From NCBI GenBank assembly GCA_001298575.1, contig LJCV01000099.1, forward strand, positions 153,839 to 217,838: DNA of 64,000 bases, given 5' to 3'. The notes beneath the pieces are model-generated. The model was not told the origin of the DNA, did not search any database, and saw only the letters and a program-made list of their open reading frames with translations. Source of the stretch: Actinobacteria bacterium OK074 (lineage in GTDB: Bacteria; Actinomycetota; Actinomycetes; Streptomycetales; Streptomycetaceae). The position numbers and the translations under genes are program-made. Below, piece after piece: positions 6,929 to 48,372 of this stretch. The first letter of the stretch is position 1. The number at the start of each line of letters is the position of its first letter.

Positions 6929-7816
6929 ATGCCCCCCGGCACCCCCGACCTGATCTCCCCCCGCTCCGCCCGCGTCGCCGCCGCCCGGCGGCTGGCCCGG
7001 CGGAACTTCCGCGGCAAGGAGGGGCTCTTCCTCGCCGAGGGGCCACAGGCCGTGCGGGAGGCGGCACTTCACCGCGGCGGTACGCGGAGCGGCATGAGCG
7101 GCGGCCCGGGAGGCGGCACGCTCACCGAACTGTTCGCCACGCCTGACGCCGCCGAGCGGTACGCCGACATCGTCCAGGAGGCCCGCTCCGCCGGCGTCCG
7201 GGTGCACCTCGCCGCCGAGGACGTGATCGCGGACATCTCCACCACCGTCACCCCGCAGGGGCTCGTCGGGGTCTGCCGGTTCGTCGACACCCCGTTCGAC
7301 GACATCCTCGCCGCCCGGCCCCGGCTGGTCGCCGTGCTGGCGCACGTCCGTGACCCCGGCAACGCCGGCACCGTCCTGCGGTGCGCGGACGCCGCCGGGG
7401 CCGACGCCGTCGTCCTCACCGACGCCTCCGTCGACCTGTACAACCCCAAGGCCGTGCGCGCCTCCGTCGGATCGCTGTTCCATCTGCCCGTCGCCGTCGG
7501 CGTCCCCGTCGAGCGGGCCGTGGCCGGGCTGAAGGACATCGGCGTCCGCGTCCTTGCCGCCGACGGGGCAGGCGACCGCGACCTCGACGACGAACTCGAC
7601 CACGGCCGCATGGGCACCCCCACCGCCTGGGTCTTCGGCAACGAGGCGTGGGGGCTGCCCGAGGAGACCAGGGCCCTCACCGACGCCGTGGTCCGGGTGC
7701 CCATCCACGGAAAGGCCGAGAGTCTGAACCTCGCGACCGCCGCCGCCGTATGTCTCTACGCGTCCGCCCGTGCACAGCGCGCCCCCACAGGGTGCCGCTC
7801 TGTCACATGCGGCTAG
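6929..7816 (+). CDS. TrmH/SpoU-family RNA 2'-O-methyltransferase
   Basis: A knotted SPOUT methyltransferase using S-adenosylmethionine to methylate a ribose 2'-OH in rRNA or tRNA. The N-terminal substrate-binding domain (NFRGKEGLFLAEGPQAVREA) is followed by the catalytic domain. SpoU motif 1 is HVRDPGNAGTVLRCADAAG, motif 2 is WVFGNEAWGLPEE, and motif 3 is VRVPIHGKAESLNLATA. I chose ATG 6929 because AAGG at 6917-6920 lies 8 nt before it; an in-frame GTG at 6920 overlaps that site. The length of 295 residues is normal. The exact RNA target cannot be read from sequence. A homologue lies at 60596-61414. Confidence 0.9.
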   Translation: MPPGTPDLISPRSARVAAARRLARRNFRGKEGLFLAEGPQAVREAALHRGGTRSGMSGGPGGGTLTELFATPDAAERYADIVQEARSAGVRVHLAAEDVIADISTTVTPQGLVGVCRFVDTPFDDILAARPRLVAVLAHVRDPGNAGTVLRCADAAGADAVVLTDASVDLYNPKAVRASVGSLFHLPVAVGVPVERAVAGLKDIGVRVLAADGAGDRDLDDELDHGRMGTPTAWVFGNEAWGLPEETRALTDAVVRVPIHGKAESLNLATAAAVCLYASARAQRAPTGCRSVTCG

Positions 7817-30767: not shown

Positions 30768-32005
<1,238 letters not shown>

Positions 32006-32744: not shown

Positions 32745-33545
32745 CTACCCCAGACGCGCCGCCAACCCATCCGTACACCGCACCTCGTCCCCCGCCGTGA
32801 TCAACAACGCCTCCACGTCCGGGAGTTGTTCCAGCCACGCCAGGCCCTCCCGTGAACCCATCGCGAACGCCGCCGTCGCCCAGCAGTCCGCCCAGGTGAG
32901 GGTGGGGCCCACGACCGTGACCGCGACCAGGTCCGTCACCGCGGACTTGCCGGTGCGCGGGTCCACGATGTGGGCGCCGCGTTCCGCCGTGCCGGACGTG
33001 GCCACCGCCAACTCGTCCGCCCCGGCCGCCGACACGACCGCCGCCAGCGCCCCGGGGCGCAACGGGTCCGAGACGCCCACGCGCCACGGGCGGTGCGGGC
33101 CGGGGACGCCGTAGAGCTGGACGTCGCCGCCGCCGTTGACGCTCACCCCGCTCGCGCCGGCCGCCGCGAGGTGCCGGGCGGCCCGTTCGACCGCCCAGCC
33201 CTTGACGATGCCGGTCGGGTCGAGGCGGCCCTCGTAGCGGGTGCTGAACCAGCCGCCGCTGAGCCGCTCCGCCTCGGCGCCGAGCGCGAGCACCTCGCGC
33301 ACCTCCGGATCGCAGTCCTCGACGGCGAGTTCACCGCGGGCCAGGCGCGAGACCTGGCTGTGCTCGCGGTAGGTGCTGAACACCTCGTCCACGCGGTGGA
33401 GTCCGGCAATCGCCTCCTCCAACGCCGTCTGGACCGCCCCGGGTTCACCGCCGCGCACGTCGAAGGAGAAGACGGTGCCCATGACCTCCTCCGCGTGCCG
33501 CAGCGCGGGCGGCGCGTCCGCGGGGTCGGCCACCTGTTCAGACAC
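32745..33545 (-). CDS. apbE: FAD:protein FMN transferase (ApbE)
   Basis: A 266-residue enzyme that attaches FMN covalently to a Thr (or Ser) of target proteins, using FAD and Mg2+. Family motifs are EEVMGTVFSFDVRG, FSTYREHSQVSRLARGE, TGIVKGWAVERAARHL, SVNGGGDVQLYG and TSGTAERGAHIVDPRTG. No signal peptide or lipobox is visible, so it appears cytoplasmic, unlike many ApbE lipoproteins; cofactor attachment may precede export. Its start overlaps the end of the double FMN-binding protein gene by 8 bp, giving a direct functional link: the FMN-binding proteins upstream are its likely substrates. Confidence 0.93.
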   Translation of the reverse strand: MSEQVADPADAPPALRHAEEVMGTVFSFDVRGGEPGAVQTALEEAIAGLHRVDEVFSTYREHSQVSRLARGELAVEDCDPEVREVLALGAEAERLSGGWFSTRYEGRLDPTGIVKGWAVERAARHLAAAGASGVSVNGGGDVQLYGVPGPHRPWRVGVSDPLRPGALAAVVSAAGADELAVATSGTAERGAHIVDPRTGKSAVTDLVAVTVVGPTLTWADCWATAAFAMGSREGLAWLEQLPDVEALLITAGDEVRCTDGLAARLG

Positions 33546-34320
33546 CGGCCTTGTCCAACGCGGACTGGAGGGACTGCTTGTAGCCGTTGCTGGTGTAGGT
33601 CGCGGTCGACACGGCGTCGATGTCGGCGCTCTGGGCCGTCACCACTTCCTGGTTGAGCTTGGGCACCGCCAGCGCCGTCTTCTGGTCGCTGGTGCCGCCG
33701 CTGGGCGCCTGCACCGCCTCCGCCTTGGTGATCTTGTCGCCGCTGAGCGTCAGCCGCACCTGGACGTTGCCGTACGTCGTCTGCGCCACGTCACCGGTGA
33801 CCGTACGAGCCTGCGTGGAACCGGAGTCGGAAGAACCCGAAGAGGCCGAGGCCGCCGGTGCCGCCGCCTTCGCCTTGTCGATCGCCGACTGGAGCGACTG
33901 CTTGTAGCCGTTGCTCGTGTAGGTGGCCGTTGAGACGACGTCGATGTCCGCGCTCTGCTTGGCCACCGCCTCCTGGTTGAGCTTGGGCACCGCCAGCGCC
34001 GTCTTCTGGTCGCTGGTGCCGCCCTTGGGCGCCTGGACCGCCGCCGCCTTGGTGATCTTCCCATCGGCCATGGTGATCTGGACCTGCACGTTGCCGTACT
34101 CGGTCTGCACCACGCTGCCGGTGACGGTCTGCGTGCCGGTCTGCTGCGCGGTGCCGCCCTGCGGTGACTCCTGGGCCGCGGCCCCCGCCTGCGGTGCCGC
34201 CCCCGCGGCCTGCGCCGAGGTCGGGTCGGTCGACGGCTTGAGGGACAGCAGCAGCACGATCCCGGACACGGTGGCCGCGCCCGCGAGCACGACACGTCGG
34301 ATGGGGTGACTCTTCTTCAT
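33538..34320 (-). CDS. Secreted protein with two FMN-binding domains
   Basis: A 260-residue exported protein. The signal/anchor is RRVVLAGAATVSGIVLLLSL, then an Ala/Gln/Gly-rich linker. Two FMN_bind domains follow at about residues 62-148 and 173-260. Each ends in the same flavinylation-type sequence, DVVSTATYTSNGYKQSLQS and DAVSTATYTSNGYKQSLQS, where the Thr of TAT is the expected ApbE target. The two domains are close to 80% identical, evidence of an internal duplication. It probably carries two FMN groups outside the membrane and passes electrons from the flavocytochrome encoded just upstream. It overlaps apbE. Confidence 0.9.
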   Translation of the reverse strand: MKKSHPIRRVVLAGAATVSGIVLLLSLKPSTDPTSAQAAGAAPQAGAAAQESPQGGTAQQTGTQTVTGSVVQTEYGNVQVQITMADGKITKAAAVQAPKGGTSDQKTALAVPKLNQEAVAKQSADIDVVSTATYTSNGYKQSLQSAIDKAKAAAPAASASSGSSDSGSTQARTVTGDVAQTTYGNVQVRLTLSGDKITKAEAVQAPSGGTSDQKTALAVPKLNQEVVTAQSADIDAVSTATYTSNGYKQSLQSALDKAGV

Positions 34321-34348: not shown

Positions 34349-35728
34349 TCACATCTCGAACGACTCGTGATGGATGCGGCGGGCGGGGACCCCCGCGCCG
34401 CGCAGTGCTTCGTAGACCTGCTGCGCGAACCCGGGCGGCCCGCACATGAACACGTCGTGCCGGTCGATGTCCGGCAGCTTGCGGCGCAGCGTGTCCGCCG
34501 AGATGTCCGGGCGTTCGCCGTCGGGGCTGTTGACCGCGTACATCAGGCGTGCCCCGCGGTCCTCGGCGATCTGCGACAGCTCGCTCCACAGGGCCAGGTC
34601 CTGCGTGGTGTTGGCCCGGTAGAGCAGGGTCAGGTCGCCGGGCGCGCCCGGCAGCGTCTCGAACAGGGTCCGCATCGGCGTGATGCCGACGCCACCGGCC
34701 ACCAGGAGCACCTTGCCCCGGCTGCGCCGCTGCGCGGTCATCGAGCCGTACGGTCCCTCGGCCCACACCCGCACGCCCGGCCGCAGTTCGCGCAGCGCGG
34801 AGCTGTGGTCGCCGATCGCCTTGACCGTGATCCGCAGCATGTTGGGGCGGGGCGTCGCCGACAGCGAGTACGGGTGCGAGCTGAACCGCATGCCCGGGGC
34901 GAGGAACCGCCACCGGAAGAACTGTCCGGCCTCCGCGCCCATCCGGTGCAGCTTCCGCCCGGTGATCAGCACGGACACCACACCGGGCGCCTCCTCGATC
35001 ACGGCCTCCACCCGCATCCGGTGCCGCATGTTGAGCCGGATCGGGGTGAGGATCCGGTACCAGATCACCAGCGCGGTCACCGACCCGTACAGCGCGTACC
35101 AGGCGGTCTGCGCGGTCGGGGTGAGCACGAAGTCGTTGCCGGTGGACAGCTGGTGCCAGAAGGTCAGGAAGACCACCGCGTACGTCAGCAGGTGGACGTG
35201 GTACCAGAGGTCGTAGGGGATCCTCCGGCGCACGCCGCCCACGGACAGCAGGCCGATCAGTACCAGCAGACCGGTGCCGATCGACGCCTTGCCCAGGTCG
35301 GGCAGTTGGGTGACGGTGCCGATGGTCACCAGGACGATGTCCTTGAAACCCTTCCCGGCCTGGAGCGCGTAGCCCCACATCGTCAGCACCACGTGCGCGA
35401 CGACCAGGGAGATCGTGTAGCGGCCGCTCATCGAGTGCCAGCGGGCGACGCGGTCGGAGCCCACCCGGCGTTCGAGTGCGGGCACCCGCGCCATCTGGAG
35501 CACGACCAGGGCCATCAGGTAGCCGGCGAGCAGACCGGTGATCCGGCCCGCGTTGAGAATCTTGGCAGTGTTGTCCGCAAGGGACGGGGTGTTCATCCAC
35601 CAGAGCCAGACCACCGCGACCGCACCCGCCGCGACGGCGAAGAGCAGCAGAGCGGCGGGTGAGCGGCGTGGACGGATGCGGCGCAGCGTCTGGCGCCGTG
35701 CGGCGCGGCCACCGGCGATCGTGGACAC
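34349..35728 (-). CDS. Ferric-reductase-like transmembrane flavocytochrome (copy 1)
   Basis: A 459-residue membrane oxidoreductase. A ferric-reductase-like domain with about six helices (residues ~30-230) carries His in RWHSMSGRYTISLVVAHVV and WYHVHLLTYAVVFLTFWHQ, likely haem ligands. The cytoplasmic half is a ferredoxin-NADP reductase fold: FAD site HPYSLSATP, nucleotide site VAGGVGITPMRTL and CGPPGFAQQVYEAL. It should move electrons from cytoplasmic NAD(P)H across the membrane. GTG 35728 has GGAGGAG right before it. The gene has its own ECF-type promoter 55 bp upstream and is followed by the FMN-binding protein and apbE. Copy 2 is at 36306-37658. Confidence 0.9.
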   Translation of the reverse strand: MSTIAGGRAARRQTLRRIRPRRSPAALLLFAVAAGAVAVVWLWWMNTPSLADNTAKILNAGRITGLLAGYLMALVVLQMARVPALERRVGSDRVARWHSMSGRYTISLVVAHVVLTMWGYALQAGKGFKDIVLVTIGTVTQLPDLGKASIGTGLLVLIGLLSVGGVRRRIPYDLWYHVHLLTYAVVFLTFWHQLSTGNDFVLTPTAQTAWYALYGSVTALVIWYRILTPIRLNMRHRMRVEAVIEEAPGVVSVLITGRKLHRMGAEAGQFFRWRFLAPGMRFSSHPYSLSATPRPNMLRITVKAIGDHSSALRELRPGVRVWAEGPYGSMTAQRRSRGKVLLVAGGVGITPMRTLFETLPGAPGDLTLLYRANTTQDLALWSELSQIAEDRGARLMYAVNSPDGERPDISADTLRRKLPDIDRHDVFMCGPPGFAQQVYEALRGAGVPARRIHHESFEM

Positions 35729-35782
35729 GGTCTCCTCCGTGATCCTCCATGGGGCGGGTGAGGCCAGTGGCCCCCTTGGCCC

Positions 35783-35815
35783 AGAGGTACGTGGGAGAGC
35801 TGCCCGTTGTTCAAA
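35783..35815 (-). promoter_or_regulatory. ECF-type promoter of flavocytochrome copy 1
   Basis: On the minus strand: TTTGAACAACGG (35804-35815), 12 nt, CGTACCTCT (35783-35791). The AAC in -35 and CGT in -10 fit ECF sigma promoters. The same sequence with the same spacing is found before the tandem-domain secreted protein (41335-41367). The site overlaps the stop of the preceding FMN-binding gene. Confidence 0.7.
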
Positions 35816-36293
35816 GTCCCGCGGAGTCCAACGCGGACTGGAGTGACTGCCGGTAACCGTCACTGGTGTAGGTCGCGCCGGAGACCGTGTCGATCTGCGC
35901 GCTCTGCGCGGCCAGGGCCTCGCGGCGCAGCTCGGGCACCGCGTAACTGTTGATCTGCTGGTCGCGCGGATTGCCCTGCGGGTACGACAGCGCCGTCACC
36001 TCGGTCAACTTGCCGTTCTCCACGGTGACCTGGACCTGGACGGCGCCGTAACGGGTCTGGACCGAGCTGCCGGTGACGGTCTTGGTGCCGGTGGCCGACG
36101 AGCCGCCGCTGCCGGACGAGCCGCCACTGCTGCTGGACGCACTCGAACTGGTGCTGGGCGCGGGCACGGAGGCCACCGCGACCGACGGCGTGTCGTGCGG
36201 CTTCAGCGACAGCAGCAGCACCACCCCGGACACCGTGGCGGCACTGGCCAGCACGATCCGGCGCAACGGGCGGTTCTTCTTCAACGCGTGCAT
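35811..36293 (-). CDS. Secreted protein with one FMN-binding domain
   Basis: A 160-residue exported protein. The N-terminus RRIVLASAATVSGVVLLLSLKP is nearly the same as in the double-domain protein at 33538-34320, and a Ser/Gly-rich linker follows. One FMN_bind domain (residues ~70-160) ends in DTVSGATYTSDGYRQSLQS, the consensus site for covalent FMN on Thr by ApbE. It lies 12 bp after flavocytochrome copy 2, so the two form a reductase/carrier pair repeating the layout of copy 1 plus the double-domain protein. Confidence 0.9.
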   Translation of the reverse strand: MHALKKNRPLRRIVLASAATVSGVVLLLSLKPHDTPSVAVASVPAPSTSSSASSSSGGSSGSGGSSATGTKTVTGSSVQTRYGAVQVQVTVENGKLTEVTALSYPQGNPRDQQINSYAVPELRREALAAQSAQIDTVSGATYTSDGYRQSLQSALDSAGL

Positions 36294-36305
36294 ATTTCCT
36301 ACGCC

Positions 36306-37658
36306 TCACAGCTCGAAGGACTCGTGGTGGATGCGGCGGTCCGGAACCCCGGCGGCCCGCAGCGCCGCGTAGACCTCCCGGGCGAAGCCGTGCGGGCCGC
36401 ACAGGTACACGTCGTGGCCGCCGATCCCGGGCACGGCCGCGCGCAGCGACTGGGCGGTGAACTCCGGGCGTTCACCGCGCGATCCGTTCAGCGCGTACAG
36501 CACCCGGCCGCCGCGCCAGCGGGCGATTGCCTCCAACTCCCGCCCCAGGGCCAGGTCTTCGGCCGTACGCGCCCGGTACAGCAGGGTCACGTCACCGGGC
36601 AGCGTCTCGAACAGCGCGCGCAGCGGGGTCACCCCGACACCGCCCGCTATGAGCAACACCTTCTGGGCGGTGCGCCGTTCGGCGGTCAGGGCGCCGTAGG
36701 GACCCTCGGCCCACACCCGGGTGCCGGGCCGCAGCAGCGCGACGGACGCGCTGTGGTCGCCGAGCGCCTTGACGGTGATCCGCAGCCGGCCGGCCCGGGG
36801 CGGCGCGGACAGCGAGTACGGCGTCGAGGTCCACCGCATCCCCTCGGTGAGGAACCGCCACCGGAAGAACTGCCCCGACTCCGCGCCCATACGGTCGAGT
36901 TGGTGCCCGCTCATGACCACCGACCAGACCCCCGGCGCCTCCCGGTGCACCGACTCCACCCGCAGCCGGTGCCGCAGGTTCAGCCGCACCGGCGCGAGCA
37001 CCCGGAACCACAGCACCAGCGCCGTAACCCCCAAGTAGAGGGCGTACCAGGCGAGTTGGGCCGCCCGGTTGCCGGTGAAGTCGGAGCCGAGGGTGAGTTG
37101 GTGCCAGAAGGCGAGGAAGACGGCGACGTACGTCAGCAGATGGACGTAGTACCAGAACTCGTGCCCGATCCGGCGGCGGGCGGCGCGGGCCGAGGAGATG
37201 CCGACCGCGAAGAGGATCAGCGTGCCGATGGTCGCCTTCAGCATGTCCGGGTAGTCCAGGACGACCGTGACCGTCTCGTGCACCAGCGAGGCGTGGTCCT
37301 GGGCGGCGTACCCGAGCAGGATCAGCACGACGTGCGCGAGCAGCAGGCAGACCGTGTAGCGCCCGGCCATCGCGTGCCAGCGGGCCACCCGGTCCGAGCC
37401 GATCCGCCGCTCGAACAGCGGCACCCGGGCCATCAGCGCGACCAGGACGGCACAGGCGTACCCGCACAGCAGTCCGGCGATCCGCCCGGCGCCGGTCAGC
37501 CAGCCCGCGGCGCCCACGACCGAACCCGTGTCCGACCACCACAGGGCGAGCACCGCGGCGGCCCCGGCCCACAGCAGGGCCAGGACGGGGGGGGGGGGGG
37601 AGCGCCGGGGCGGCAGGGGCACATGGGTGGCCGTCCGCGGTTCGTGCACGGTCGTCAT
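36306..37658 (-). CDS. Ferric-reductase-like transmembrane flavocytochrome (copy 2)
   Basis: A 450-residue paralogue of the protein at 34349-35728 with the same domain order. The membrane domain has RWHAMAGRYTVCLLLAHVV and WYYVHLLTYVAVFLAFWHQ. The reductase part has TPYSLSAPP (FAD), IAGGVGVTPLRALFE and CGPHGFAREVY. Both copies end in RRIHHESFE. ATG 37658 follows AAAGGAC at 7 nt. Codons ~20-24 are written with a run of 14 C (37587-37600 on the plus strand), which is prone to slippage and could switch the gene off. It is the first gene of the minus-strand redox operon and is divergent from the two-component genes. Confidence 0.9.
   Translation of the reverse strand: MTTVHEPRTATHVPLPPRRSPPPPVLALLWAGAAAVLALWWSDTGSVVGAAGWLTGAGRIAGLLCGYACAVLVALMARVPLFERRIGSDRVARWHAMAGRYTVCLLLAHVVLILLGYAAQDHASLVHETVTVVLDYPDMLKATIGTLILFAVGISSARAARRRIGHEFWYYVHLLTYVAVFLAFWHQLTLGSDFTGNRAAQLAWYALYLGVTALVLWFRVLAPVRLNLRHRLRVESVHREAPGVWSVVMSGHQLDRMGAESGQFFRWRFLTEGMRWTSTPYSLSAPPRAGRLRITVKALGDHSASVALLRPGTRVWAEGPYGALTAERRTAQKVLLIAGGVGVTPLRALFETLPGDVTLLYRARTAEDLALGRELEAIARWRGGRVLYALNGSRGERPEFTAQSLRAAVPGIGGHDVYLCGPHGFAREVYAALRAAGVPDRRIHHESFEL
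37587..37600. repeat. Homopolymer G14/C14 inside a coding region
   Basis: Fourteen consecutive G on the plus strand (C on the coding strand) near the 5' end of flavocytochrome copy 2, encoding a short Pro run. Shorter G runs occur in the intergenic region at 37768-37776. Confidence 0.95.
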
Positions 37659-37701
37659 GGAGGCGTCCTTTCGGCTGTTCGGCACAACCGTGCCGCCACG
37701 A

Positions 37702-37719
37702 CTTCTGAGCTCCTTCTCA
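37702..37719 (-). promoter_or_regulatory. Direct-repeat operator candidate before flavocytochrome copy 2
   Basis: CTTCTGA (37702-37708) and CTTCTCA (37713-37719) on the plus strand are 11 bp apart, i.e. TGAGAAG and TCAGAAG on the minus strand. They resemble the TCAGAG array before the response regulator. Spacing of 11 bp, one helical turn, is typical of OmpR-family regulators. Confidence 0.5.
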
Positions 37720-37790
37720 GTACGGGGCCGCCGTCGCCGTATCGGCACAGGCCAGGAGGGGTGCGGCGGGGGGGGGTGCGGTGCCGCGGA

Positions 37791-37818
37791 TCAGAGGGGA
37801 CTCAGAGGGAACTCAGAG
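37791..37818 (+). promoter_or_regulatory. Three 11-bp-spaced TCAGAG repeats before the response regulator
   Basis: TCAGAG at 37791, 37802 and 37813, exactly 11 bp apart, 50 bp before the response regulator start. This is a likely binding array for the OmpR-type regulator it precedes, suggesting autoregulation. Confidence 0.65.
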
Positions 37819-37867
37819 CGGTATAAGGAAGCCCGCCCGCGGGCGGCGCGGCATGCTGGTGGGTGAG

Positions 37868-38617
37868 ATGAACATGCCCCGCTCCCGCGCCTCCGGCCGT
37901 CCCGCGCTCACCCGCCCCGACGGCAGCCCCGTCCGGGTCCTCGTCGTCGACGACGACCCCGACCTCGCCGAGGTGCTCTGCGGCGCCCTGCGCTACGAGG
38001 GCTGGGAGGTGCGCTCGGCCGGTGACGGGGCGAGCGCCGCGGCCGAGGCGCGCGAGCTGCTGCCCGACGCCGTCGTCCTGGACGTGATGCTCCCCGACAC
38101 CGACGGCTTCGCCGTGCTGCGCGACCTGCACACCGTGCGGCCCGAGGTCTGCGTGCTGTTCCTGACCGCGCGCGACGCCGTCGAGGACCGCATCGCGGGC
38201 ATCACCGCGGGCGGCGACGACTACGTGACCAAGCCGTTCAGCCTGGAGGAGGTCGTCGCCCGGCTGCGCGGACTGCTGCGCCGCGCGGGCATGGCCCGGC
38301 AGCTGGAGGACGGCCCCCGGCTGACCGTCGGCGACCTCGTCATGGACGAGGAGGCCCGCGAGGTCACCCGCGGCGGCGAACTCGTCGAACTCTCGCCCAC
38401 CGAGTTCGAACTCCTGCGCTTCCTCATGCGCAACCCGCGCCGCGTCCTCAGCAAGAGCCAGATCCTCGACCGCGTCTGGTCCTACGACTTCGGGGGCCGC
38501 GCCCACGTCGTCGAGCTGTACATCTCCTACCTGCGCAAGAAGGTCGACGCCGGCCGCCCGCCCATGATCCACACGGTCCGCGGCGCCGGATACGTGCTCA
38601 AGCCGGTGGCCCGATGA
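37868..38617 (+). CDS. OmpR-family response regulator
   Basis: A 249-residue regulator. The receiver domain (residues ~20-135) has the acidic pocket VLVVDDDPDLAEVL, the phosphorylated Asp in DAVVLDVMLPDTDGF and the Lys in DDYVTKPFSLEEV. The winged-helix DNA-binding domain follows (LSPTEFELLRFLMRNPRRV, then SYDFGGRAHVVELYISYLR and HTVRGAGYVLK). ATG 37868 is used; ATGs at 37853 and 37874 are alternatives. Its stop overlaps the kinase start (ATGA), so they form one operon. The position beside the redox operon and shared repeat operators suggest that it controls that operon. Confidence 0.92.
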   Translation: MNMPRSRASGRPALTRPDGSPVRVLVVDDDPDLAEVLCGALRYEGWEVRSAGDGASAAAEARELLPDAVVLDVMLPDTDGFAVLRDLHTVRPEVCVLFLTARDAVEDRIAGITAGGDDYVTKPFSLEEVVARLRGLLRRAGMARQLEDGPRLTVGDLVMDEEAREVTRGGELVELSPTEFELLRFLMRNPRRVLSKSQILDRVWSYDFGGRAHVVELYISYLRKKVDAGRPPMIHTVRGAGYVLKPVAR

Positions 38618-40101
38618 GGGCATGGCCCCCGCGGCGCTGGGCGTCGCGGCTGCCCCGGCCGCGCACCCTGCGCGCCCGGCTCACCGCGGGCCTGGTCGTG
38701 CTGCTCGCCATCAGCTGCGCCGCCGTCGGCGTGGCCGCGGTCATCGAACTCGACGGCTTCCTCACCGGCCGCCTCGACCAGCAGCTGACCGAACTGGGCA
38801 CCAGGTTCCCGGCCAGCCTGGAGCACGGCGGCAGGATCCCCCACGACGACCACGACGGCGACGAGCAGGGCGACACCCGCCGCACGGCCACCGGCACCTT
38901 CGGCGCCCGCCTCTACAAGGGCACGGTCACCAACGCGGCCGTCGTCCGCTCCGGCGACCTGACCACCGACCTGAACGTCGACCTCAGCGCAGGGGACAAG
39001 GCGAAACTGGCCGCGATCGAGGTCGACGGCGAGGGCCACACCGTCGACCTGGCCACGCTGTCGCCGTACCGGATGACGGCGTCCAAGGGGCTCGACGGCG
39101 ACATCCTGATCACCGGGCTGCCGCTGGAGCCGGTCGAGGCCACCGTGCACCGGCTGGAACTGGTCGCCGCGATCGTGTTCGGCCTGGCCCTGGCCATCAC
39201 CGGGGTCGCGGGCGCGCTGTGGGTGCGCTGGTCGCTGCGGCCGCTGATCCGGGTCGCCGACACGGCCGCCCGGGTCAGCGAACTCCCGCTCGCCAGCGGG
39301 GAGGTGGCGCTGCCGCCGCGGGCCCCCGAGTCCGACCCGCGCGGCGAGGTCGGCCGGGTCGCGACCGCCTTCAACCGGATGCTCGGCCATGTCGAGGACG
39401 CCCTGACCAAACGGCACGCGAGCGAGGAACGGCTGCGCACCTTCGCCGCCGACGCCAGCCACGAGCTGCGCACCCCGGTGGCGTCGGTGCGCGGCCACGC
39501 GGAACTGGCGCTGCTGCACCCCGGCCCGGTCCCGCCGAAGGTGACCCGCGCGCTGGAGCGGATCGCGGCGGAGTCGGCGCGCATGGGCGAGATGGTCGAC
39601 GACCTGCTGCTGCTGGCCCGCCTGGACGCGGGCCGCCCCCTGGAACGCTGCCCCGTGGACCTCACCCACCTGGTCCTGGACGCGGTGGCCGACGCCCAGG
39701 CCGCGGGCCCGGACCACCGCTGGGAACTGGACCTCCCGGAGGAGCCGGTCACCGTCCCCGGCGACGCCCATCGCCTCCAGCAGGTCCTGGCCAACCTCCT
39801 TGCCAACGCCCGTTTGCACACACCCGTTGACACGAAGGTGACGGTGACCCTGGAGACCGCCGGTACGACGACCACACTGAAGGTCCACGACAGCGGCCCG
39901 GGTGTCCCCGACGACGTCCAGCCCGGCGTCTTCGAACGCTTCACCCGGGCGGACCGCCGCCGCACGGAGGGCTCGGGCGGCGGAGCGGGGCTGGGGCTGT
40001 CGATCGTGGCGGCGGTGGTGGAGGCGCACGGGGGAGCGGTGACACTGGAGAGCCGGCCGGGGTCAACGACTTTCACGGTACGGCTGCCGGGCACTTTCTG
40101 A
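38614..40101 (+). CDS. Membrane sensor histidine kinase
   Basis: A 495-residue two-pass kinase. Transmembrane helices lie at about residues 25-45 (LTAGLVVLLAISCAAVGVAA) and 178-200 (LVAAIVFGLALAITGVAGAL). They flank an extracytoplasmic sensor domain of ~130 residues with a His/Asp-rich stretch, DDHDGDEQGD. HAMP follows, then HisKA with the phosphorylated His in DASHELRTPVASVRGHAEL, and the ATPase domain with N box NLLANARLHT, DSGPGVPDD and GGGAGLGLSIVAAV. The acidic/His stretch might bind a metal; this is inference. It pairs with the response regulator before it. Confidence 0.93.
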   Translation: MRAWPPRRWASRLPRPRTLRARLTAGLVVLLAISCAAVGVAAVIELDGFLTGRLDQQLTELGTRFPASLEHGGRIPHDDHDGDEQGDTRRTATGTFGARLYKGTVTNAAVVRSGDLTTDLNVDLSAGDKAKLAAIEVDGEGHTVDLATLSPYRMTASKGLDGDILITGLPLEPVEATVHRLELVAAIVFGLALAITGVAGALWVRWSLRPLIRVADTAARVSELPLASGEVALPPRAPESDPRGEVGRVATAFNRMLGHVEDALTKRHASEERLRTFAADASHELRTPVASVRGHAELALLHPGPVPPKVTRALERIAAESARMGEMVDDLLLLARLDAGRPLERCPVDLTHLVLDAVADAQAAGPDHRWELDLPEEPVTVPGDAHRLQQVLANLLANARLHTPVDTKVTVTLETAGTTTTLKVHDSGPGVPDDVQPGVFERFTRADRRRTEGSGGGAGLGLSIVAAVVEAHGGAVTLESRPGSTTFTVRLPGTF

Positions 40102-40196
40102 CGGCGCGGCTGCCCGGCAGCACTTTCTAGCGCTGCGGCTGGCTGGGGCGCCTTTCCAACGCTGCGGCTGCGAGGGCGCCTTCCAACGCTGCGGCG
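40078..40196. repeat. Imperfect GC-rich repeat array after the histidine kinase
   Basis: Four to five degenerate units built on GCTGCGGCTG and CTTTC(C/T)AACG/CTTTCTAGCG, with 25-30 bp periods. The first begins within the last codons of the kinase gene (CGGCTGCCGGGCACTTTC). The clearest pair is GGCGCCTTTCCAACGCTGCGG and GGCGCCTTCCAACGCTGCGG at 40147-40194. Confidence 0.65.
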
Positions 40197-40266
40197 CCCC
40201 TGCGCTTTCAGGGGCGCGGGGCTGTATCGATGTGCGGCTCCGCCGCGTGGGCGCGAGTAACCACGG
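40194..40266 (+). repeat. Dispersed intergenic repeat, copy 5 (long form) with stem-loop
   Basis: GCGCCCCTG (40194-40202) pairs with CAGGGGCGC (40209-40217). The second arm begins the repeat, which continues GGGGCTGTATCGATGTGCGG, CTCCGCCGCGTGGGCGCG and ends AGTAACCAC. The stem-loop probably terminates transcripts of the convergent kinase gene. No gene is seen from 40267 to 40387. Confidence 0.8.
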
Positions 40267-40387
40267 CCGGCCCGCACCCAACGAACAACAGTCACCCCAA
40301 CGGCGCCATTTCGGCCAACCCGGCAGGATTGCCCATGGCCGCCCCGGCCGGCGCTCGGGGCGGCCATGGCGCCTGACACGCTCAGTA

Positions 40388-41272
40388 CTACTTGTTGAGC
40401 GTGCAGGCGGCCAAGGAGTCAAGCCCGGTCGGCTTGTCAGCGGTCCGCCCGATCGCGGTGGCGATCCGATTGATCGTCGCGACCCGCTTGTCCTCCAGCG
40501 GACCGAGGATCGCGTTCTGCACGAAGTTCGCCCCGCCCTGCCCGACGGTGTCCACGAGCCGCTGGTTCGCCTCCTGGATCTGCGTGTCGAGCAGCGTCAG
40601 GTTGCGCGTGACCTCGTCCTGGGCGGACGCCGGAATCGCGGGCAACTGGGACTCGACGTCCGGGCAGGTGATCGTCCCGACGTCACTGGTGTCGGCCGCG
40701 GCCGAGTCGTCCCCGGCGGCCTCGTCCCCGGCCGCCGCGCTCGCGCTGGGGCTCGCCGAGTCGGCCGGCGTGGCCTCGGGGGACGCTCCCGCCGGGGACG
40801 CCGCACCGTCGCCCGTGGCCGTACCGCCCGCGTCCAGCGCGCACTCGGCGAGCGAGTCGAGGCCCGTCGGCTTCTCGGCGGTGCGGCCGATCGCGATGGC
40901 GATGCGGTCGATGGTCGAGGTCCGCTTGTCCGCCAGGGGGCCCAGGATCGCGTTCTGGACGAAGTTGGCGCCGCCCTGGCCCACCGTGTCCTGGAGGCGG
41001 GTGTTGGCCTCCTGGATCTGGGTGTTGAGGAGCGTGAGGTTGCGGTCGACCTCGGCCTGGGCGGACGCCGGGATGTCCGGCAGCTGCGAGGCCACGTCCG
41101 GGCAGACGATCGTGCCCGGGTCGGCCAGCGTCTTGGCGGCGGTGCCGCTGCTGTTGGACGTCTCCCCGGCGAGGGCGTTGCCGGCGATCACCGCGCCCGA
41201 CAGCACCACCGCGGCGGCGCCGCCGATGAGGACCACGCGACGCTTGTTGTACTTCGGAAGAGCCCTGGACAT
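40388..41272 (-). CDS. Secreted protein of two near-identical 88-residue domains (unknown family)
   Basis: I do not recognise this family. The 294-residue protein has a signal peptide/anchor (residues ~11-36, RRVVLIGGAAAVVLSGAVIA). Two domains follow at residues 55-146 and 201-292, with 76 of 92 positions identical by my count. Each begins with CPDV and ends with a second Cys exactly 87 residues later (Cys57-Cys144, Cys203-Cys290), suggesting a disulfide that closes each domain. Each domain is helical with the invariant stretch DTVGQGGANFVQNAILGPL. The linker is Ala/Ser/Pro/Asp-rich. The gene has the same ECF-type promoter as flavocytochrome copy 1, so it is probably co-regulated with that system. 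Confidence 0.8.
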   Translation of the reverse strand: MSRALPKYNKRRVVLIGGAAAVVLSGAVIAGNALAGETSNSSGTAAKTLADPGTIVCPDVASQLPDIPASAQAEVDRNLTLLNTQIQEANTRLQDTVGQGGANFVQNAILGPLADKRTSTIDRIAIAIGRTAEKPTGLDSLAECALDAGGTATGDGAASPAGASPEATPADSASPSASAAAGDEAAGDDSAAADTSDVGTITCPDVESQLPAIPASAQDEVTRNLTLLDTQIQEANQRLVDTVGQGGANFVQNAILGPLEDKRVATINRIATAIGRTADKPTGLDSLAACTLNK

Positions 41273-41334
41273 GCAGATGCCTCACTAGGGTCAGGGGGGT
41301 CCGTTGTTGACAAACGCGGCGCCTGCGTTCGGGG

Positions 41335-41367
41335 AGAGGTACGAGAAAGCGCGTTCCGTTGTTCAAA
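41335..41367 (-). promoter_or_regulatory. ECF-type promoter of the tandem-domain secreted protein
   Basis: On the minus strand: TTTGAACAACGG (41356-41367), 12 nt, CGTACCTCT (41335-41343). It is identical in both boxes and spacing to the site at 35783-35815. It lies 63 bp before the start codon. Confidence 0.7.
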
Positions 41368-47853: not shown

Positions 47854-48372
47854 ATGACCCACGACATGCTCACCGCCCTGCGCCCGCTGCTCGTCGCCGA
47901 AGCCTCCGCGGAGGCATATGCGATCGGCGCCGAACCGGGCGACCTCGAACAGGCGGTGTGGCTGCGCCTGCTGGAGCGGCTCGACACGGACGGCCCACCC
48001 GCCGACCCCGAGGGCTGGCTGCGCCGGGCCGTCCGTTCCGAGGTGCGCCGCACCCGCCGTACCGCCCTGCGCGAACAGGCGTACGGCGACGCGTCCGCCG
48101 TCGAGCCGGTGGACGATGCCGCGGTCTGCCCCGAGCAGCAGGTGCTCACCGCCGCCCGGCGCAGCGCACTGCGCGCGGCGGTGCGCAGGCTGCCCGGGCG
48201 TTGCCCGAGCCTGCTGGAGGCACTGCTGTCGCCCAAGGACCTGACGTATCGCGAAATCGCGGGGGAGTTGGGTATGTCACAGGGCAGTCTTGGCCCGGAA
48301 CGTTCCAGATGCCTGGGATGTCTGCGTCGTTTGCTGAACGTGGAGGTTGCGGGGCGCGAACGGCGGGGATAG
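47854..48372 (+). CDS. ECF-like RNA polymerase sigma factor
   Basis: A 172-residue protein with sigma-70 features. The region 2 part is weak (AYAIGAEPGDLEQAVWLRLL, then DPEGWLRRAVRSEVRRTRR). Region 4 is clearer (LPGRCPSLLEALLSPKDL, then TYREIAGELGMSQGSLGPER as helix-turn-helix). No anti-sigma gene is adjacent, and no strong ribosome site precedes the ATG. It is the only sigma-like gene in the window. It could be the factor for the two ECF promoters at 35.8 and 41.3 kb, but there is no direct evidence for that. Confidence 0.78.
   Translation: MTHDMLTALRPLLVAEASAEAYAIGAEPGDLEQAVWLRLLERLDTDGPPADPEGWLRRAVRSEVRRTRRTALREQAYGDASAVEPVDDAAVCPEQQVLTAARRSALRAAVRRLPGRCPSLLEALLSPKDLTYREIAGELGMSQGSLGPERSRCLGCLRRLLNVEVAGRERRG

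Follow-up and report, generated by a model that had tools for sequence, protein, structure and literature searches.

Two matching ECF-type promoters, probably read by SigU, are predicted before a flavocytochrome operon and an exported tandem-domain protein gene in Actinobacteria bacterium OK074

We analyzed two short elements in a 64,000-nucleotide stretch of the genome of Actinobacteria bacterium OK074 (Streptomycetaceae; assembly GCA_001298575.1, contig LJCV01000099.1, positions 153,839 to 217,838, forward strand), hereafter the window. The elements lie on the minus strand at 35783-35815 and 41335-41367, upstream of a flavocytochrome gene (flavocytochrome 2) and of a gene for a predicted exported protein with two copies of one domain (the tandem-domain gene), respectively. 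Judged from sequence, they are very probably the -35 and -10 boxes of a single promoter class, TGAAC-N17-CGTA, of the extracytoplasmic function (ECF) type; its likely reader is RNA polymerase with the sigma factor SigU, whose gene lies elsewhere in the genome. The two genes are best seen as connected through common regulation, as members of a broad exported-protein response.

A pattern search of the window found TTTGAACAACGG-N12-CGTACCTCT exactly at both sites; no third copy was present in the window with up to three mismatches allowed, and the pattern had no match across 100 shuffles. The first-pass annotation had described two minus-strand sites identical at 21 positions around a 12-nt gap, 55-65 bp before start codons, and this description holds: 54 bases separate the site end from GTG 35728 of flavocytochrome 2 and 62 bases separate it from ATG 41272 of the tandem-domain gene. 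The longer pattern TGAACAAC-N14-CGTACCT has two exact copies in the whole 10.7-Mb genome, which are these sites only. A one-mismatch copy (L003:1501-1529), 37 bases before an NlpC/P60 gene, was set aside since it has CGTT instead of CGTA. The predicted promoter elements are as follows:

35783..35815, minus strand: predicted promoter of the flavocytochrome 2 operon (-35 TGAAC at 35809-35813, 17-base spacer, -10 CGTA at 35788-35791; exact pattern, core in 76/76 loci)
41335..41367, minus strand: predicted promoter of the tandem-domain gene (-35 TGAAC at 41361-41365, 17-base spacer, -10 CGTA at 41340-41343; exact pattern, core in 80/80 relatives)
41316..41330, minus strand: conserved block GAACGCAGGCGCCGC just 3' of the tandem-gene -10 box (13 of 15 positions at >=95% in 80 sequences)

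At 35783..35815 the site shares bases with the stop codon of the FMN-binding gene that precedes it.

To assess conservation we scanned 260 bases upstream of the tandem-domain gene in 80 relatives that carry it, all named Streptomyces. TGAAC-N17-CGTA was present in every one; spacings from 12 to 22 other than 17 occurred in at most 2 of 80, and the core was absent from the reverse strand in all 80. The same core precedes flavocytochrome 2 in 76/76 loci (the window plus 75 relatives; in the other 5 of the 80, flavocytochrome 2 was absent from the stretch examined), with no other spacing among the 76. Upstream of seven control genes the core was not found: flavocytochrome 1 (0/33), the two FMN-binding genes fmn1 (0/34) and fmn2 (0/75), apbE (0/73), the response regulator (0/36), the histidine kinase (0/37) and argG (0/35). 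Of these, fmn1, fmn2 and apbE are the weaker controls because their upstream regions fall largely inside the preceding gene. The hallmarks of an ECF promoter (AAC in the -35 box, CGT in the -10 box, a fixed spacing of 16-17 and a position before a start codon) are thus found in all 80 and all 76 regions, and the earlier judgment that an ECF-type pair is very unlikely to arise by chance is borne out, the agreement being far beyond chance. What is conserved is TGAAC-N17-CGTA; the AACGG that follows TGAAC varies among relatives, so part of the 21-base identity is local.

Conservation is not limited to the boxes. Part of the tandem-gene spacer is kept in relatives (AAACCGCTT), as is the block GAACGCAGGCGCCGC, which in L117 and L138 reads as a second box pair, TGAAC-N16-CGTA; past the -10 box of flavocytochrome 2, the leader (35773-35783, minus strand) reads TGGGCCAAGGG in most of the 76 loci. 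Such a conserved spacer and leader at the tandem-domain gene would suit a repressor or activator operator in place of a promoter, a reading that we consider most improbable, as the shared sequence consists of two short boxes at a fixed 17-base gap on the strand of the downstream gene (reverse strand, 0/80) and the same core precedes an ECF sigma gene, described below. Two further core matches in the window, at 7725-7750 and 31866-31891 on the plus strand, both read as coding. The match at 7725-7750, which recurs in five genomes, was rejected as a promoter because its nearly invariant spacer reads as protein (LNLATAAAVCLY); this case is a warning against relying on motif conservation alone.

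Which sigma factor reads the two promoters was approached through the genome's own sigma genes. There are 51 Sigma70_r2 matches at E <= 1e-5, and the 600 bases before each domain were scanned; TGAAC-N17-CGTA lies upstream of just one of them. In 30/30 loci of that sigma gene (the own genome plus 29 relatives, which are the best 30 among the 91 of 121 genomes with a match) TTGAAC-N17-CGTA is kept upstream, so that the core precedes the proposed sigma operon itself. The next gene encodes a zf-HC2 anti-sigma factor, with the HX3CX2C motif of zinc-binding anti-sigma factors in all 30 loci, and the third a helicase with UvrD domains whose best NCBIfam matches are HelR/HelD, all below cut-offs. In the S. 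coelicolor accounts consulted, SCO2954 is SigU, SCO2953 is RsuA and SCO2952 is a HelD. We provisionally named the core-bearing sigma gene SigU because its sigma/anti-sigma/HelD-type order matches sigU-rsuA-helD (SCO2954-2952), a likeness of gene order that makes it a putative sigU ortholog. A tandem-gene match (E <= 1e-50) is present in 37 of the 121 genomes, all 37 of which have the sigma gene, as do 54 of the other 84 (Fisher p 4.6e-6, uncorrected for and confounded by kinship).

The first-pass annotation had pointed to the sigma-like gene of the window itself (47854-48372, plus strand) as a candidate. That gene lies 6.5 kb away and scores just above the cut-off of the general NCBIfam sigma70-ECF model (45.0 vs 42.9 bits), yet both sigma regions fall below the Pfam cut-offs and GAAC-N15..19-CGT is absent from the 300 bases upstream. 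A dedicated sigma factor at this position therefore has very little probability in our estimate, and the factor for both promoters is very likely not this gene. The same annotation had predicted a dedicated sigma factor; a factor can indeed be proposed, though not a dedicated one, as 24 further sites are found in the own genome.

These sites come from the genome-wide scan suggested earlier, in which the exact pattern stayed confined to the two sites and a relaxed pattern, YTGAAC-N17-CGTAY, was compared with its reversed counterpart. The own genome gave 26 matches vs 1 reversed, and four relatives gave 30:1, 29:3, 21:1 and 23:1. About 15 of the 24 additional sites are in promoter position by reading, many of them before exported proteins. 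The tandem-domain gene, once tied to the flavin redox system, is by its promoter tied to a broad exported-protein regulon and not specifically to flavin, since the further sites match and many precede exported proteins. When all 129 sites were compared, 23 clusters covered two or more genomes. In all five genomes the core stands before the tandem protein and DUF1996-type relatives (13 sites), trypsin-like proteases (7), a CDP-alcohol phosphatidyltransferase, a PTPS-type gene, an aminotransferase and sigU itself; another five-genome cluster, before a histidine kinase, was read as coding. In four of the five it stands before flavocytochrome 2, DUF4142, a secreted Rieske protein and guaB, named by eye (the guaB-like IMP dehydrogenase gene has the core upstream in L242 and in the relatives L301, L333 and L312). 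Genome G101 has flavocytochrome 2 with the core, a site that the YTGAAC pattern missed because A stands before TGAAC. Orthologs of the DUF4142, PTPS, CDP-alcohol and Rieske genes were confirmed, at 51-98 bases from the site start. A small lipoprotein with a site lacking a partner in relatives (L247) was considered as a cupredoxin and dropped, Pfam giving no family.

In L244, L245 and their relatives, the CDP-alcohol phosphatidyltransferase and PTPS-type genes each have a site upstream; in 5/5 genomes the two sites are on opposite strands, roughly 1 kb from each other.

Several points weigh against SigU as the reader of one promoter class. The conservation of the tandem promoter extends into spacer and leader, which sigma boxes alone leave unexplained. 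Ten of the 26 own sites are without a partner in the four relatives, some sites lie inside genes, and some recurring clusters, best aligned on the opposite strand, may represent coding sequence. The name SigU comes from gene order and papers, and the assignment of SCO1573 taken up below comes from counting genes in L084. In addition, the putative SigE promoter sco6178-6177 in a published table fits TGAAC-N17-CGTA by reading (PMC6767563), so that SigE or shared use is possible. According to the part of that work consulted, ECF factors overlap in promoter use, and SigE promoters share AAC and a -10 box at 16-17 bases. We nevertheless consider it unlikely that a different ECF factor, for example SigE, reads the promoters by itself or jointly with SigU. 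Most tabled putative SigE promoters have TC after CG, as in CGTCT, and by our reading sco6178-6177 alone among them has a CGTA -10 box (PMC6767563), whereas CGTA is found at all sites here; the core also lies upstream of only one of the 51 sigma matches.

SigU is known to promote protein secretion. Gordon et al. reportedly described autoregulation of sigU, gave a promoter sequence and named 22 likely targets. In the S. coelicolor annotation consulted, argH is SCO1570 and argR is SCO1576; SCO1573 falls in this argH-argR interval, where the present cluster sits. As summarized in the portion of PMC6295645 consulted, Gordon et al. 2008 found annotated secreted proteins and proteases, including SCO1573, in the SigU regulon, and secretion increases when rsuA is lost. 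In L084 the genes reached on going back from argR are apbE, the FMN-binding gene and the flavocytochrome, an order from which we infer that the flavocytochrome corresponds to SCO1573. Both the promoter class and, probably, one of the two genes as a SigU target have thus been published already. The tandem-domain gene is best read as an added member, by which a known regulon is extended.

The locus lies in the interval between argG/argH and argR. Its minus-strand genes are the tandem-domain gene and flavocytochromes 1 and 2, the former accompanied by one FMN-binding gene, the latter by apbE and an FMN-binding gene with two domains; a response regulator/histidine kinase pair (37868-40101) sits among them on the plus strand. 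The features are:

40388..41272, minus strand: predicted exported tandem-domain protein, 294 aa (open reading frame; two ~88-aa domain copies bounded by cysteines, C57-C144 and C203-C290)
36306..37658, minus strand: flavocytochrome 1, paralog without the core upstream, used as control (Pfam; core 0/33)
35811..36293, minus strand: FMN_bind protein 1, adjoining flavocytochrome 1 (Pfam)
34349..35728, minus strand: flavocytochrome 2, with a Ferric_reduct membrane domain and FAD and NAD(P) binding domains (Pfam)
33538..34320, minus strand: protein with two FMN_bind domains, next downstream (Pfam, two stretches)
32745..33545, minus strand: ApbE-type flavin transferase, next downstream (Pfam)

The cassette of flavocytochrome 1 with its FMN-binding gene (35811-37658, minus strand) and the regulator/kinase pair seems optional, because it is present in only 33-37 of 81 loci, some of which end early. 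Pfam assigns the tandem protein to no family above cut-off, and NCBIfam gives no match. Its ~88-aa domain corresponds to the N-terminal part of DUF1996 proteins (the homolog L251 carries DUF1996), and the four bounding cysteines are invariant in 32 sequences. In an AlphaFold model (pTM 0.39, domains mostly at pLDDT 78-92) the domains are helical hairpins closed by short strands, and Foldseek with this model found no significant solved structure (best E 2.2). By prediction, the protein consists of two disulfide-bounded helical hairpins, the disulfides themselves being predicted. Within the paper collection searched, DUF1996 combined with Streptomyces brought up a single paper, on fungi.

A working scheme can be drawn from published SigL/RslA and SigU/RsuA. 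RsuA, the anti-sigma factor, would hold SigU until an envelope signal releases it; region 4 of SigU would then contact TGAAC and region 2 CGTA. Released SigU would transcribe the operon that encodes it, sigU-rsuA, and alongside it the flavocytochrome 2/FMN-binding/ApbE genes, the tandem-domain gene, the DUF1996 relatives and further genes for exported proteins. Electrons taken from cytosolic NAD(P)H would be carried through the membrane by the flavocytochrome and delivered to a flavinylated exported protein, and the tandem protein would act outside the membrane. RslA is redox-sensitive via CXXC in the portion of PMC2877774 consulted, and the HX3CX2C motif of the anti-sigma factor here would permit, though it does not demonstrate, redox sensing by RsuA. 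A more speculative extension, which we offer tentatively as possible though improbable, is that SigU-RsuA may be an envelope redox switch: oxidation of the RsuA zinc site would free SigU, which would build an extracytosolic electron route (flavocytochrome, flavinylated protein, ApbE and the secreted Rieske protein) and, along with it, a family of disulfide-bounded helical hairpins served or protected by that route. The testable promoter rule TGAAC-N17-CGTA connects one sigma factor, in many Streptomyces species, with a flavinylation cluster and with an exported-domain family that is still uncharacterised, and the SigU signal and the role of the tandem-domain/DUF1996 proteins become directly testable in S. 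coelicolor.

Three known systems resemble the one described here. The SigU-RsuA regulon of S. coelicolor (Gehring 2001 and Gordon 2008, as cited in PMC6295645) shares the sigma gene followed by anti-sigma and HelD-type genes, the secreted-protein and protease targets, and SCO1573 in the argH-argR interval; it differs in species, and the tandem-domain gene is not named in the part of the account in PMC6295645 consulted. MsrQ-like flavinylation clusters, broadly kept in Actinobacteria according to the excerpt of PMC8238504 used, bring together a PF01794 membrane protein with a PF00175 NAD domain, an FMN-binding gene and apbE, and Pfam places a PF01794 gene beside FMN_bind and ApbE genes in the window; that excerpt does not link the class to an ECF sigma factor. 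The best solved relative of the sigma protein is M. tuberculosis SigL (6dv9, E 9.5e-35), whose partner RslA likewise has an HX3CX2C motif (30/30 loci here) and whose -10 box also begins with C-G and then T. As given in the part of PMC6372665 consulted, G is the base that SigL favours after CGT, a preference to which Asp60 contributes. Three of four known SigL promoters carry that G. Unlike in SigL, the base after CGT here is A at all sites, and the residue aligned to Asp60 is Arg in 30/30 loci, the own included; among 116 parsed of 120 homologs it is Arg in 76, Gly in 25 and Asp in none. The Arg in place of SigL Asp60 may explain the shifted -10 preference, and is a candidate residue behind this change.

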